DNA of 64,000 bases from an uncultured bacterium. GTDB taxonomy: Bacteria; Patescibacteriota; Saccharimonadia; Saccharimonadales; Saccharimonadaceae. The translations under genes were made by a program, and so were the position numbers. The DNA lies in the NCBI GenBank assembly GCA_937863415.1, contig CALMFC010000005.1, positions 270,322 through 334,321 on the forward strand, in the 5' to 3' direction. This document shows, piece by piece, positions 47,379 to 55,810 of the stretch. Position 1 is the first letter of the stretch. Each line of letters starts with the position of its first letter. The notes below the pieces were generated by a model. It searched no databases and had not been told where the DNA came from. It saw only the letters and a list, made by a program, of their open reading frames with translations.

Positions 47379-47711
47379 GGTAGTTCATTAGATGATCGCC
47401 AGACATCTTTGATGTTTGGAGGAAAGTCCGGGCAGTGTAGGGCAATAACAGTCGCTAACGGCGACCGGAGGCAACTCTAGGGAAAGTGCCACAGAAACAA
47501 AACTACCCTTTATAGGGAAAAGGTGAAATGAGTGGGGTAAGAGCCCACAGCATATCACGGTGACGTGGTATGACGGTAAACCCTGTTAACTGCAAGGAGA
47601 TCTGTATAAGGGCGGCCCGTCCGCAGGTCGATATCCGCTTGACCTTATAGGCAACTACTAGGCTAGATAGATGATCATCCACGACAGAACCCGGCTTATA
47701 GATGAACTGCC
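47379..47711 (+). ncRNA. rnpB: RNase P RNA (bacterial)
   Basis: About 333 nt. It contains the invariant GAGGAAAGTCCGGGC near the 5' end, GTGCCACAGAAAC in the middle and CACGACAGAACCCGGCTTA near the 3' end. The ends pair as stem P1: GGTAGTTCAT (47379-47388) with ATGAACTGCC (47702-47711). It cuts the 5' leader from tRNA precursors. Confidence 0.95.
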
Positions 47712-47715
47712 AAAC

Positions 47716-50477: not shown

Positions 50478-50880
50478 GGGGCTGACTTTAGCTTTGACGG
50501 AAGGATTTTAACAGATTATCTTGCAAGTCGATCGTGGACGTAATCCACAAAATTTAATTGCAAACAAACTTGCATCAGCATTTGCATCAGTGAAAGAGGC
50601 TTTTAGCTTCCGTAGCTTTGCATTTGCGCCAGCCGTAGCCTAAACGCTATAGCCGTCATATATTGCAGGCGACATAGACTGTATATGGTGTTATAAAACA
50701 TGTCGATCACTAGTTTTATGGGGAGCAGCGTGAGACTAGGACAATTTACTGCGCGACAACTTTAGCGTTTTTCGTTTGACCTTGAGTTAATGATGTCGTT
50801 AAGACCTAGGACAGACTAAACTTGTAGACAGATAATCGGTTACCTTTCGGACCGGGGTGCGATTCCCCGCAGCTCCACCA
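50478..50880 (+). ncRNA. ssrA: tmRNA
   Basis: 403 nt. The ends form the alanine-tRNA-like acceptor GGGGCTG with CAGCTCC, including the G-U pair read by AlaRS, followed by encoded CCA, and the T-arm GGGGT-GCGATTC-CCCGC-like. The tag frame starts at GCA 50560 and ends at TAA 50641: 27 residues beginning ANKLASAF, ending FAFAPAVA. That is a long tag, and the end is AVA instead of the usual LAA/ALAA. tmRNA rescues stalled ribosomes and marks the chain for proteolysis. Confidence 0.95.
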
Positions 50881-50888
50881 ACGACGCG

Positions 50889-50985
50889 AATACCCCAGCC
50901 GTAAAGTTGGGGTATTGACGTTAATAGTGGACGAAAGCAATAAGTTTAGAAAATAAAACAACCGCCTGCGAGGAACGGTTGTTTT
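50889..50985 (+). terminator. Two hairpins after ssrA
   Basis: First AATACCCCA (50889-50897) with TGGGGTATT; then AAAACAACCG (50955-50964) with CGGTTGTTTT (50976-50985) followed by TG. The second has the form of an intrinsic terminator; the first may be the 3' trailer hairpin. Confidence 0.7.
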
Positions 50986-50989
50986 GTGT

Positions 50990-51740
50990 GGAGTTTTTTA
51001 TGTCTTGTTTATTTTTGGCTCCTGTATAATTTATTTATTCAGAAGCTACCCCTATAGTAAGCCGTTATCGTGCTTATGTCAATGGTTATTATGAAAAATC
51101 ATTAGTAAAATATACTACATATTTTTGGATGATTAGGCGGTCTGTTGATTAATTCTGACGAACGAAGCCTACCTAGAGTGATCGTAATAAGCCTAGTGCA
51201 ACAAGCCAGTGTTTGTTGTTGGCGAATTTAGGTAACTTACATAAACGACTCATTGACCTACCGTAGGCAAATTTAAGATTCTGAATTCCTATGCTGCGTA
51301 GACAATCAATTTGAAATGCCCAAAAAAATTAAATAAATATGTACTTGAAATTAACCAGAAAGCAAAACCAAACAATATTAATTATTAGGCACGTAGGAGC
51401 TAGGTTGTGTATACGTAAACGATAAATTGTATTAATAAAGAAATCCTAGACGCTAAAATCATTCAAAAATTATTTGAAAACAACCAAGCTATAATCATAG
51501 ACGATTAGGAAGATTAAAACAGAACACGTTAGATAAATATATAAATATTAATGATTTAAGTAGACATGTAACACATTTAAGTAAAGAAAAAGATAAAAAT
51601 AAATGAAAATATCACAACGTTGTGAAAATCGCATTAGTGTTTAATTTACACCTTAGAATACTAAAAATAGTCTATATAGTGTTAAAACAACATCAGAATT
51701 ATACGCATTTATAATTGACCAGATACGATGCTTATGCTAA
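50990..51740. other. AT-rich gene-poor spacer
   Basis: No gene is supported. 51120-51290 has several pairing elements (TAGGC/GCCTA, CAACAA/TTGTTG at about 51208-51227, CCTACCGTAGG), so it may hold another structured RNA. 51400-51610 is very AT-rich, with two short frames without start codons (about 26 and 34 codons) in different phases; they could be remains of a decayed gene but no similarity is recognised. Confidence 0.4.
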
Positions 51741-51743
51741 GAT
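51715..51743 (+). promoter_or_regulatory. Candidate promoter for the structured RNA
   Basis: TTGACC (51715-51720), 17-base spacer, TAAGAT (51738-51743). Confidence 0.45.
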
Positions 51744-51749
51744 TACATA

Positions 51750-52140
51750 TAAGCTTTTACAAAAACAAAAACAAAGCTCAACACATTAACAATTAAAACA
51801 GTAACTGACCGTCGCCTTGACGGAAACTCGGTAACGACAGACTGGTACTGATAAGATGATTTGCCTATGCAAGTCACGAACCTTTGTACCATAATTGGCG
51901 TTACCGATGCTCCGCCAACGCGTGAGCGCGTATGCTTAGTACCGGTGTGCCTTGTTTTCGATCCAGTGGTGTTGGACCGAAAACTAGGCACATTGAGGAA
52001 CCGCAAACAAGGACTATATGCTCTGGGTTTCCTAGAGCGGTCAGTCAAACAGCCTGCAGCGGCAGGGTCTTGTGGTTCACACGCCAAATATTTTTATTAG
52101 CGGCGTTTGCTGCAACCCAGGCATAACTTGTCGCTCGGGC
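51750..52140 (+). ncRNA. Strongly structured RNA candidate, unknown family
   Basis: A GC-rich island in an AT-rich spacer with at least eight local helices in series: CCGTC/GACGG (51809-51823); TGGTAC/GTACCA enclosing TTGC/GCAA (51843-51891); TTGGCG/CGCCAA (51895-51918); CGCG/CGCG (51919-51930); a long arm GTGCCT, GTTTTCG, CCA against TGG, CGAAAAC, AGGCAC (51947-51991); AGGAACC/GGTTTCCT (51996-52033); CCTGC/GCAGG (52053-52066); ACGCC/GGCGT (52081-52106). The overlapping reading frames (114 residues minus, 79 and 64 plus) have no start signals or recognised domains. A promoter candidate lies at 51715-51743; no clear terminator is seen. It is not SRP RNA, RNase P RNA or tmRNA. Confidence 0.55.
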
Positions 52141-52184
52141 TTGTTCCAACTCATATGTTTAAATGATATAGTCTGTAGTTAACA

Positions 52185-52571
52185 ATGTTAAAGAAATTCG
52201 TTATTATTATTACGCTACTAGGCCCCTGTCTGTTAGCCATATTACTCAACGTCACAACGCCAGCAACAGCTGGCCCTTTTGGTATTCTGGCTATTTTTGT
52301 TTTTGCCTATCTGTCGTCTTTGGGTTTAACTACGATCATACTATTTGGCGTAAGTAGGGGTTTTGCTAAGCTATCTCATATCTTTATGGCTAGGAAACCG
52401 ATTACACCTATTACCCTAAAGATGTCATACAATTACTCAACCGTCATTGCTTTTGCTCCGATAATACTAATAGGGTTTCAGTCAGTGGGCGAGATCACAA
52501 TATATGAACTGCTTTTACTAGTACTTTTTATTATTATCGGCTGTATTTATGTTGCAAAAAGAATCAGGTAA
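52185..52571 (+). CDS. Hypothetical membrane protein, about four membrane segments
   Basis: 128 residues, hydrophobic segments at about 5-24, 31-60, 82-100 and 104-123. Not recognised. TATAGT (52167-52172) lies 12 bases before ATG 52185. The next gene, 44 bases on, has its own -10. Confidence 0.7.
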   Translation: MLKKFVIIITLLGPCLLAILLNVTTPATAGPFGILAIFVFAYLSSLGLTTIILFGVSRGFAKLSHIFMARKPITPITLKMSYNYSTVIAFAPIILIGFQSVGEITIYELLLLVLFIIIGCIYVAKRIR

Positions 52572-53071: not shown

Positions 53072-55810
53072 ATGAGTTTTTGGATTACAGCAGGTATTGT
53101 TTTTATCTTGGGCATCTCGGTGTCTGTGTTTATTTTTTTGCAATACCGTAAAACCCTTCGCGAGGCAAAGAACTACGAACGCGGCCTCAAAATGGTGTCT
53201 TTATACATTCACATACCACCCTCGGGCGATGACTTAGAGGCTAATGGTCGAGATGAACGCGACGTAACTGAAGAGGTGTTGTCTCAGGCTCAGGTTATGT
53301 ACAATATTATTTCTAGTACTACACAAAAGGGATTTAAGAGTCGAATGTACGGGCAGCGACATATATCTTTTGAGATAGTTGCGCACGATGGTTTAGTGCA
53401 CTATTACGTAGTTGTTCCAACGGTGTTGATTGACGTGGTGCGTCAAGCTGTGGCATCTGCCTATCCATCAGCGAGACTTGAAGAGGTGGAAGATAAAAAT
53501 ATTTTTAGCCAGACCGGTAAAATTAGTGGCACAATTGGTGGCGAGTTTACGCTTAAGAAGAGTTTCGTTTATCCAATAGCAACCTATCAAGAGTCAAAGC
53601 GTGACGCCGCCAGAGCACTTTTGAACGCTCTTTCTACTGTCACTAAAGATGATGGTGTATCGGTTCAGCTATTGATGAGGCCGGCACCAGAGGGTTGGAC
53701 TAAAAGTTCTATTTTTACAGCCAATCAAATCAAAAAAGATAAGGGTGTTAAGAAATCAAGCATCGGGTCAACACTTAACCCAAAAGATTTACTGGGGGCA
53801 CTTTGGAAACCACCAGAAACATCTGAGGTAAAGCCCGAAGATAAGCAGTTATCGTCACTTGAGCAGGGGTTAGTTGAATCTATCGAAGAGAAAACTCGTC
53901 ATCCGGGTTACGAGGTGTTAGTTAGGGTGGTGGTATCATCAAATACAACAGCCAGGTCACAGGCGATACTAAAGAATATTATTGCCGCTTTTTCTTTATT
54001 TGATTCTACAACCAACAACGGCTTTAAATTCAGCATATCAAAAGACATCGAAGAGCTTGTTACTGCTTATATATTTAGATTTTTTCCACAAAGCGTGACT
54101 CAGAATATTTTAAATAGCGTTGAACTAGCAACACTATTCCATCTGCCAGATCAAAGTAGTATTCCAACATCGCAAGTACAGAGACAGATGGCTAAACAGG
54201 TTGATGGGCCAACGCAAACGATGGAAGAAGGATTTTTGCTGGGTTATAACGAGTTTCGTGGAGTCAAAAAGCAGATTAGACTTAGTTCAAACGACCGACG
54301 CAGACATACTTATATGATTGGTCAAACCGGTACAGGTAAGTCTGGGCTGCTAGAGAATTTGGCATTCCAGGACATGATGGATGGTCGTGGCTTCGCTTTT
54401 ATTGACCCACACGGTGATTCTGTTGAGAAGTTACTTGGAATGGTTCCAAAAGAGCGCGTTGAAGACGTTATCTACTTTAACCCAAGCGATATGGAAAATC
54501 CTATCGGATTGAATCTTTTCGAGTTTGAAACCGAAGATCAACAAGATTTCTTAATTCAAGAATCAATTTCTATGCTATATAAACTGTACGATCCGGGGCA
54601 TACAGGTATTATTGGTCCGCGTTTTGAATCGTGGTTTCGTAATGGTGCCAAAACTGTAATGAGTGATCCAGCTGGTTCTTCATTCTTAGACGTCCAACAG
54701 GTCTTTATCGATCAGTCATTCACTGATGAGAAGATGAAATATATTACTAATAGAGTAGTGTTGGATTTCTGGAACAAGGAAATGGCACAAACACCCGACT
54801 CTGCGAAGGGTGAGATTTTGGGCTGGTTCGCCAGTAAATTCGGCGCGTTCCTAGGGAATGACACACTACGAAATGTCATTGGTCAGACCAAGAGTGGCTT
54901 TAATTTAAGAGACATTATGGACAACAAAAAGATTTTACTTGTTAATTTATCTAAAGGTCGATTGGGCGAGCTTAACTCGCAGTTACTGGGGATGGTTTTT
55001 GTAATGAAATTCCAGGCAGCGGCAATGGGTAGAGCAAATATGCCAGAGGATCAACGCGAAGACTTCTCGTTATTTGTTGATGAGTTTCAGAATTTTGCGA
55101 CCGATAGCTTTGAGTCGATTTTGTCCGAGGCGCGAAAATATCGATTGAATCTGGTATTAGCTAATCAGTTCATGACCCAATTAACAGACAATATCCGAGA
55201 GGCGATTTTAGGAAATATCGGCACTGTAATTAGTGGACGAATTGGTATAACTGATGCGGAAGTTCTTCAGAAGAAGTTTTTGCCTACATTTGATGCCGAA
55301 GATTTAACTAAATTGCCCAACTATCAAACTATTACGTCAGTTATGATTAATGGCGTGCCGTCTGCGGCGTTTAGTATGTCGCTCATTCCTCCGATGGGGA
55401 CATCAAATACTCAGTTAGCTGATGCATTAAAGCGGTTGTCCGCAGCAAAGTATGGACGTCCTCGTGCGGTTGTAGAGTCAGAGATATTTACGCGACTTGG
55501 TTCGGGTGACGCAGCCAAAAAAGCCAAGATGGAAGCTTTAAAGAAAGCTCAACAAGAAAGAATGAACACAATGCGCACGGGGCCTGTGCAGGGTGCTCCT
55601 GGAGGTGGTGGGGCTTCGTTTTTGGATGAATGGCTAGCTAAGCGTCAGCAGATAGCATCGACAGGGTCTAGTGGCCCCGCTACTCCAACTAAGCGTAATG
55701 ATGGTATAGAACAAAAGGATAGTAACGTAGCCTCACAAGATAACACAGATCAGTTCCAAGTTAAATCATCCGACAAGTCAGATGATGAAGTGTCTATAAA
55801 ACTTCGATAA
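53072..55810 (+). CDS. Type IV secretion-type (VirD4/TraG-like) membrane ATPase
   Basis: 912 residues. One N-terminal membrane segment (about 4-25, ITAGIVFILGISVSVFIFL), then a large domain (about 30-400) of no known fold, Walker A MIGQTGTGKSGLLENLA (near residue 416), AFIDPHGDS, Walker B LFVDEFQNF (near 668), and ANQFMTQL as in TraG/TraD/VirD4 couplers. The tail is Gly, Pro and Ser rich. Such genes occur in Saccharibacteria without a full conjugation apparatus. It could move protein or DNA across the envelope in contact with the host. No relaxase or VirB genes are in the window. Confidence 0.85.
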   Translation: MSFWITAGIVFILGISVSVFIFLQYRKTLREAKNYERGLKMVSLYIHIPPSGDDLEANGRDERDVTEEVLSQAQVMYNIISSTTQKGFKSRMYGQRHISFEIVAHDGLVHYYVVVPTVLIDVVRQAVASAYPSARLEEVEDKNIFSQTGKISGTIGGEFTLKKSFVYPIATYQESKRDAARALLNALSTVTKDDGVSVQLLMRPAPEGWTKSSIFTANQIKKDKGVKKSSIGSTLNPKDLLGALWKPPETSEVKPEDKQLSSLEQGLVESIEEKTRHPGYEVLVRVVVSSNTTARSQAILKNIIAAFSLFDSTTNNGFKFSISKDIEELVTAYIFRFFPQSVTQNILNSVELATLFHLPDQSSIPTSQVQRQMAKQVDGPTQTMEEGFLLGYNEFRGVKKQIRLSSNDRRRHTYMIGQTGTGKSGLLENLAFQDMMDGRGFAFIDPHGDSVEKLLGMVPKERVEDVIYFNPSDMENPIGLNLFEFETEDQQDFLIQESISMLYKLYDPGHTGIIGPRFESWFRNGAKTVMSDPAGSSFLDVQQVFIDQSFTDEKMKYITNRVVLDFWNKEMAQTPDSAKGEILGWFASKFGAFLGNDTLRNVIGQTKSGFNLRDIMDNKKILLVNLSKGRLGELNSQLLGMVFVMKFQAAAMGRANMPEDQREDFSLFVDEFQNFATDSFESILSEARKYRLNLVLANQFMTQLTDNIREAILGNIGTVISGRIGITDAEVLQKKFLPTFDAEDLTKLPNYQTITSVMINGVPSAAFSMSLIPPMGTSNTQLADALKRLSAAKYGRPRAVVESEIFTRLGSGDAAKKAKMEALKKAQQERMNTMRTGPVQGAPGGGGASFLDEWLAKRQQIASTGSSGPATPTKRNDGIEQKDSNVASQDNTDQFQVKSSDKSDDEVSIKLR

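Follow-up and report, generated by a model that had tools for sequence, protein, structure and literature searches.

A 64,000-nucleotide stretch of DNA from an uncultured Saccharimonadaceae bacterium (hereafter the window) carries a promoter and a structured element that together span positions 51,715-52,147 on the + strand. The element is conserved in relatives, covaries among them and has no match in Rfam, and these results support the initial annotation, which had described an undescribed structured RNA at this site. The reading that we tentatively favour, with confidence somewhat short of even, is that of a stand-alone RNA gene (51,750-52,147) whose product would act in trans and would be bound by the protein encoded downstream, MP128, as a membrane ribonucleoprotein. 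Searches of open-licence papers on RNAs of Saccharibacteria, Patescibacteria and the Candidate Phyla Radiation returned no title or abstract that describes this RNA.

The features of the locus are collected in Table 1. The promoter had been read as TTGACC-N17-TAAGAT, and rightly so: both boxes recur in the alignment of 30 loci recovered at the blastn level (26 of the window's genus and 4 of other genera), and they predict an RNA start near 51750. Both ends of the RNA are predicted from such signals, the 5' end from the promoter and the 3' end from the U-rich stretch past the 3' rod. No strong separate terminator was seen in the window itself, where only the weak U-rich CTTGTTCC follows the rod. 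Upstream, the approximately 750 bases between the tmRNA region and the RNA promoter (50962-51714) are free of listed ORFs of at least 40 codons.

Table 1. Positions of the RNA, its predicted parts and neighbouring genes in the window.
Feature	Position	Strand	Sequence, basis or remarks
RNase P RNA	47380-47714		Rfam
tmRNA gene	50478-50880		ARAGORN and Rfam; sole tmRNA in the window
RNA promoter	51715..51743	+	TTGACC 51715-51720, 17-base spacer, TAAGAT 51738-51743, extended -10 (TGC); TGCTAAGAT
Predicted non-coding RNA, expanded form	51750..52147	+	~400 nt; fold, blastn homologues, models R1, R2, R3
5' hairpin	51752..51778	+	AGCTTT/AAAGCT, A-rich loop; sequence; A-rich leader also in the 30-locus alignment and compact loci
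ACTGACC	51804..51810	+	exact complement of GGTCAGT 52039-52045; possible long-range helix; sequence, alignment
5' rod	51817..51918	+	TTGACGGA 51817-51824 with TCCGCCAA 51911-51918; TCGGTAACGACA 51828-51839 with TGGCGTTACCGA 51896-51907
Long arm holding the previously noted stem	51944..51994	+	fold, alignment; variable, missing in several relatives
Hairpin, then nearly invariant GGTCAGT	52020..52045	+	GCTCTGG..CCTAGAGC; alignments A1, A3
3' rod	52052..52140	+	base GCCTGCAGCGGCA 52052-52064 with TGTCGCTCGGGC 52129-52140; AU-rich apical loop
U-rich stretch after 3' rod	52140..52147	+	CTTGTTCC; possible weak intrinsic terminator; variants in alignment
TATAGT, putative -10 box of the MP128 gene's own promoter	52167..52172	+	12 bases upstream of the start codon
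MP128, 128 aa, proposed partner	52185..52571	+	ORF; helices consistent with four membrane segments

Folding of the region 51790-52160 gave -144.4 kcal/mol versus -107.7 +/- 5.4 kcal/mol for 100 dinucleotide shuffles, none of which folded as well (z = -6.8), and the predicted fold consists of several separate hairpins and rods, with no single bubbled rod. From 5' to 3', the 30-locus alignment displays the promoter, the A-rich hairpin leader, the 5' rod, a variable middle arm, the hairpin with GGTCAGT, the 3' rod and a TATAGT-type box. The conserved core is composed of the 5' rod, the one hairpin with GGTCAGT and the 3' rod, and the hairpin ahead of GGTCA keeps its pairing in other families. The GC-rich island described initially is indeed structured, but the element reaches further 5' and includes the A-rich hairpin leader at 51752-51778. 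The long stem that had been singled out within it does have three segments (22 pairs in the predicted fold versus the 16 counted at first), but it is the most variable part, and since the arm that holds it is variable or absent in relatives, it is placed outside the core. The possible helix between ACTGACC and GGTCAGT lies beyond a covariation test, its 3' side being nearly invariant. A contact between A-rich and U-rich loops was also considered and set aside, being simple sequence to which no covariation test can be applied. Changes in the length of the element are frequent among relatives; in one of them (L028, 1495-1680) the 3' strand of the 3' rod carries an extra hairpin insertion of ~50 nt.

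The initial annotation had expected covarying pairs if the RNA were genuine, and these were found. In the 3' domain, 24 of 37 pairs are changed on both sides with pairing kept (alignment A1; 28 of the 30 blastn-level loci, without L012 and L028), and alignment cells with such changes number 107, versus 27.9 in shuffles and 13-23 in slid controls. For the 5' rod (A2; 27 of the 30 loci, without L015, L021 and L030), 6 pairs and 15 cells are changed on both sides, versus 1.9 and 4.6 in shuffles; here the case is weaker, because 7 of the 19 pairs never vary, and one pair is an A.C mismatch in 26 of 27 sequences. The shorter, compact relatives (A3; 14 sequences out of 19 candidates, without L123, L133, L103, L100 and L107) gave 24 cells versus 7.7 in shuffles; further pair types, a weaker measure, were reached by 36 of 500 shuffles. 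An order-wide alignment of 58 matches (A4, including one antisense match, L205 at 19.1 bits, next to the true one) gave 92 cells versus 23.2, a comparison that is somewhat favourable as the alignment was fitted to the model; the tally of 9 pairs with changes on both sides, again a weaker measure, was reached by 9 of 500 shuffles.

By blastn, homologues were found in 31 of 99 genomes, corresponding to 26 of the 28 genomes of the window's genus (counting its own) and five further genomes of the family; the exact core motif is present in 14 named public contigs, whose titles read Saccharibacteria, Saccharimonas, Patescibacteria or just bacterium. Covariance searches employed model R1, built on the 3' domain, and model R3, built on the compact form. 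R1 matched 53 of 246 genomes of the order and 12 of 286 genomes of the phylum, all belonging to the same order. Its weak matches in other families occupy the same site, upstream of the genes for P141 and an ATPase and mostly downstream of comM or IF3, and these loci resemble a shorter form of the RNA. R3 hit 164 of 294 genomes from the order at E<=0.01, the best at E 2.2e-21. Taken together, the two models cover 32 of the 37 family labels that were listed for the order; no match was listed for f4, f20, f23, f30 and f37. A compact version of ~130-260 nt is typical of the other families, versus ~400 nt for that of the window. That most families of an order with such small genomes share a structured RNA makes the latter a candidate for some basic role in the cell.

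At the level of the phylum, R3 matched 14 of 332 genomes. Beyond the order, R3 picked out G374, which belongs to a different order of the class (E 1.6e-5), and, weakly, three loci of family f73 from another class (34.9, 31.4 and 22.1 bits). The three f73 loci each precede an MP128 homologue encoded on the same strand, and they came to light only when the search was confined to the stretches surrounding MP128 homologues. Matches in three genomes of other classes (G340, G434 and G371; R3 E 2.6e-4 to 0.008), whose stretches hold no MP128 homologue, were treated as chance, and E-values near 0.001 are thus unsafe alone. A search of phages and viral contigs for the RNA gave no match.

The predicted model of MP128 has a mean pLDDT of 95.6 and its helices fit four membrane segments, a topology that comes from the model only. 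The net charge of the family is +7.0 on average (91 members), with 88 of 91 members at +3 or more; positive charge is usual at the inner face of membrane proteins. The window's MP128 belongs to no Pfam or NCBIfam family, and a search at E<=0.001 detected relatives in 72 of 249 genomes of the phylum (alignment A5 comprises the window's protein and 37 of 77 references). An ORF of the MP128 family follows the RNA on the same strand in all 87 loci retained for analysis of gene context, with the ATPase following in 86, P141 in 81 and comM upstream in 72. The ORF starts no more than 175 nt past the RNA end, or before it, in 83 of the 87 loci, and 278-551 nt past it in the other four; six ORFs start more than 60 nt ahead of the RNA end, presumably where the first possible start codon was taken. 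The initial annotation had placed the RNA between tmRNA and a membrane-protein gene, which is true of the window, but what stays next to the RNA throughout is the downstream membrane-protein gene and not tmRNA.

The 87 loci were drawn from 99, and the others (L101, L102, L104-L106, L111, L112, L114, L116-L119) were left out for an absent or weak match to R1 or R3 (11.0 bits for L101, 12.3 bits for L106), some of them holding tmRNA away from the block. Loci L080-L099, L120-L137 and L180-L219 had been picked by their match to the RNA and not by the protein, while eight (L100, L103, L107-L110, L113 and L115) were entered via tmRNA; four of the latter (L100, L103, L107 and L108) have a weak R1 match only (E 0.006-0.04) and owe their inclusion in part to position. 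Iteration of the MP128 profile used the same 87 loci, and likely close relatives (L123/L124, L082/L090 and L107/L108) are counted separately in that number.

In the reading that we favour, the RNA gene would be transcribed from its own promoter as a discrete unit and the RNA would likely act in trans; MP128 would bind it through its basic cytoplasmic face, and the resulting complex would sit at the cell membrane. A housekeeping or stress role is our guess for this complex, because the RNA is widely conserved among genomes that are small (listed sizes of 0.4-1.6 Mb). Among known systems, the nearest analogue is the OLE RNA-OapA pair of Bacillota, which the RNA and MP128 resemble in a likeness that carries no evidence of homology. 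According to PMC12265935, oapA is the usual immediate downstream neighbour of ole, and OapA, an OLE RNA-binding protein, is predicted to have four transmembrane helices with positive charges clustered on the cytoplasmic side. The two systems share a structured RNA directly upstream of a gene for a small basic membrane protein with four predicted helices (PMC12265935 and PMC11332333 for OLE), the gene order of OLE type being found in every one of the loci above, with the helices taken from the model.

The differences are also clear. OLE measures ~600 nt, versus ~400 nt in the window or ~130-260 nt in compact loci, and it occurs in other organisms; the pair described here is predicted from sequence. 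Rfam, whose 4227 families we take to include OLE, gave no OLE match at gathering score in the window, at E<=5 over the element or at E<=3 in ten compact loci. A fold search with MP128 returned no match to the CNNM/CorB-like fold reported for OapA, a result that is not evidence that the folds differ. Judged by model match and length, the RNA is not an OLE RNA. If it is true that the RNA works with MP128, the pair would be an independent second membrane RNA complex of OLE-like type, in organisms with pared-down genomes. A wider claim, that Patescibacteria possess a second, OLE-independent membrane RNA machine, made of a structured RNA and a dedicated four-helix membrane protein, that predates the divergence of the window's class from that of f73, compact in many lineages and ~400 nt long in the window's family, we consider unlikely, at about one step below the central proposal. 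Since Saccharibacteria are now transformable (PMC10633639), removal of the RNA or of MP128 could test the pairing directly.

The main rival is that of a stand-alone housekeeping or regulatory RNA unrelated to MP128 and linked to it by shared gene order only, a serious possibility although we would hesitate to adopt it. Most of the block formed by RNase P RNA, IF3, comM, tmRNA, the RNA, MP128, P141 and the ATPase is conserved, and in the window both tmRNA and RNase P RNA lie nearby. Because nearly the whole neighbourhood is conserved within the order, independent tests of the linkage are few, and they come from L176, L202 and the f73 loci. L176, which comes from a different order of the class, has the RNA together with MP128, and none of the other five neighbour families was found in its 9-kb stretch; in L202, P141 lies ~2.4 kb away, with MP128 at +81; and in L251, from another class, a 31.4-bit R3 match lies ~64 nt upstream of the MP128 match. 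Retention of the pair where neighbours are lost or displaced, and its presence in another class, argue against a link by gene order only. At two of the three f73 loci, a further ORF separates the RNA from MP128, and the distance between them is ~1.2-1.5 kb. On the side of the rival, R3 matches at E<=0.01 are absent from 28 of 32 loci with MP128 homologues outside the order, including L235 and L238 of the same class, where MP128 may not need the RNA, or the RNA may have diverged.

An RNA unrelated to MP128 might act by pairing with mRNAs, or have some other protein as its partner. CACCUU in the 5' half could bind AAGGUG-like ribosome-binding sites, which we treat as a lead only: [GA]CACCTT is frequent in the window's family (20 of 30 loci, 1.2 expected), but among the compact loci CACCTT is rare (5 of 56, 0.65 expected).

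Within the block, the ATPase (53072-55810 in the window) matches the type IV coupling-protein domains TraG-D_C and TrwB_AAD_bind.

The RNA could also be a cis-acting leader, that is, the 5' part of an MP128-P141-ATPase transcript that it would control in the manner of a riboswitch or attenuator. Its unvarying position upstream of MP128 on the same strand would fit this arrangement, but the signals around the RNA speak rather for a separate unit, and we judge a leader to be improbable. Among 56 compact loci (L124, a near twin of L123, being excluded from these and from the CACCTT counts), a TTGAC-N17/18-TRNNNT promoter lies upstream of 48 (1.0 expected) and a separate intrinsic terminator follows within 85 nt of the RNA in 34 (2.3 expected), both expectations being taken from mononucleotide shuffles, which preserve base composition only. 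A few of the 34 terminators extend into the start of the MP128 ORF. The other 22 compact loci have no separate terminator by the criteria used, and they, like the window with its weak U-rich stretch, would be compatible with a leader. A TATA[AGC]T box, aligned in relatives, is found within the last 110 nt in 29 of 30 blastn-level loci (a count without shuffle control), near the start of MP128, and would provide the latter with a promoter of its own. With promoter and separate terminators in its compact relatives, the RNA looks like the product of a stand-alone gene, which is the reading that we prefer. The distance between promoter and 3' domain is 52-183 nt in the 48 compact loci, and the compact RNA would therefore measure ~130-260 nt, typically ~155 nt, up to the end of the rod; an A-rich motif is present in 31 of the 56 (4.7 expected).

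A highly diverged version of a known RNA that is missed by Rfam models, such as SRP RNA or 6S RNA, is very unlikely. None of the 4227 Rfam families reaches its gathering score over the element, where E<=5 brings up only implausible sub-threshold hits, and in ten compact loci (E<=3) and twelve MP128 loci (E<=0.5) the only hits are rRNA, RNase P, tmRNA and tRNA or similarly implausible. These scans agree with the first reading of the sequence, which had seen no likeness to tmRNA, RNase P RNA, SRP RNA or 6S RNA, tmRNA and RNase P RNA being encoded elsewhere in the window (Table 1). Neither SRP RNA nor 6S RNA was found in the genome by Rfam, which leaves room for a diverged form of either, and the compact form presumably overlaps 6S RNA in size. 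However, 6S RNA (RF00013) is a single bubbled rod, unlike the separate hairpins here, and has no match around the element (E<=5) or in the ten compact loci. SRP RNA is likewise hairpin-rich, the membrane link of the RNA here being hypothetical, but neither RF00169 nor RF01854 matches around the element or in the ten compact loci at these permissive E-values, and RF01854 has no match in the window's own genome at E<=10. In a broader survey, RF00169 matched 0 of 116 Patescibacteria genomes at E<=0.001, with 11 of 14 controls positive. The SRP54 M-domain (PF02978) was absent from the window's own genome (0 of 1), versus 14 of 14 controls, so that a candidate SRP RNA would be left with no recognised partner.

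An identity with tmRNA (RF00023) was considered and rejected. Although tmRNA adjoins the RNA in the window, has a similar length and also contains an A-rich part, the element shows neither tRNA-like ends nor a tag frame, and ARAGORN and Rfam find in the window only the tmRNA listed in Table 1. tmRNA is a separate gene that in some genomes lies far from the RNA, ~333 kb away on the same contig in G134 and ~348 kb away in G092. The raiA-motif RNA (ModT), ROOL and GOLLD are structured bacterial RNAs whose biochemical role is mostly open, a trait that they share with the RNA described here; they occur in other organisms, and none has an Rfam match here.

That there is no RNA gene at all, but a decayed gene or a chance GC-rich island, is suggested by the three ORFs of 64-114 codons that overlap the element, but we regard it as next to negligible given the folding z-score, covariation far above shuffles and slid controls and frequent length changes in relatives, results that bear out the initial view of a stem density beyond chance and unlike that of a decayed gene.

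A few observations were made upstream of MP128 homologues elsewhere. In three loci (L241, L242 and L243), the homologue lies directly downstream of an ORF, with no R3 match; by eye, we take this ORF to resemble a diadenylate cyclase of DisA/CdaA type. In L240 and L251, from two other Patescibacteria lineages, MP128 is preceded by a TTGACA promoter, by AAAACAAAAAYAAA and then TTGCACCTT, and by GC-rich hairpins. L251 matches R3 and L240 does not, and the RNA may have a longer form in these lineages.
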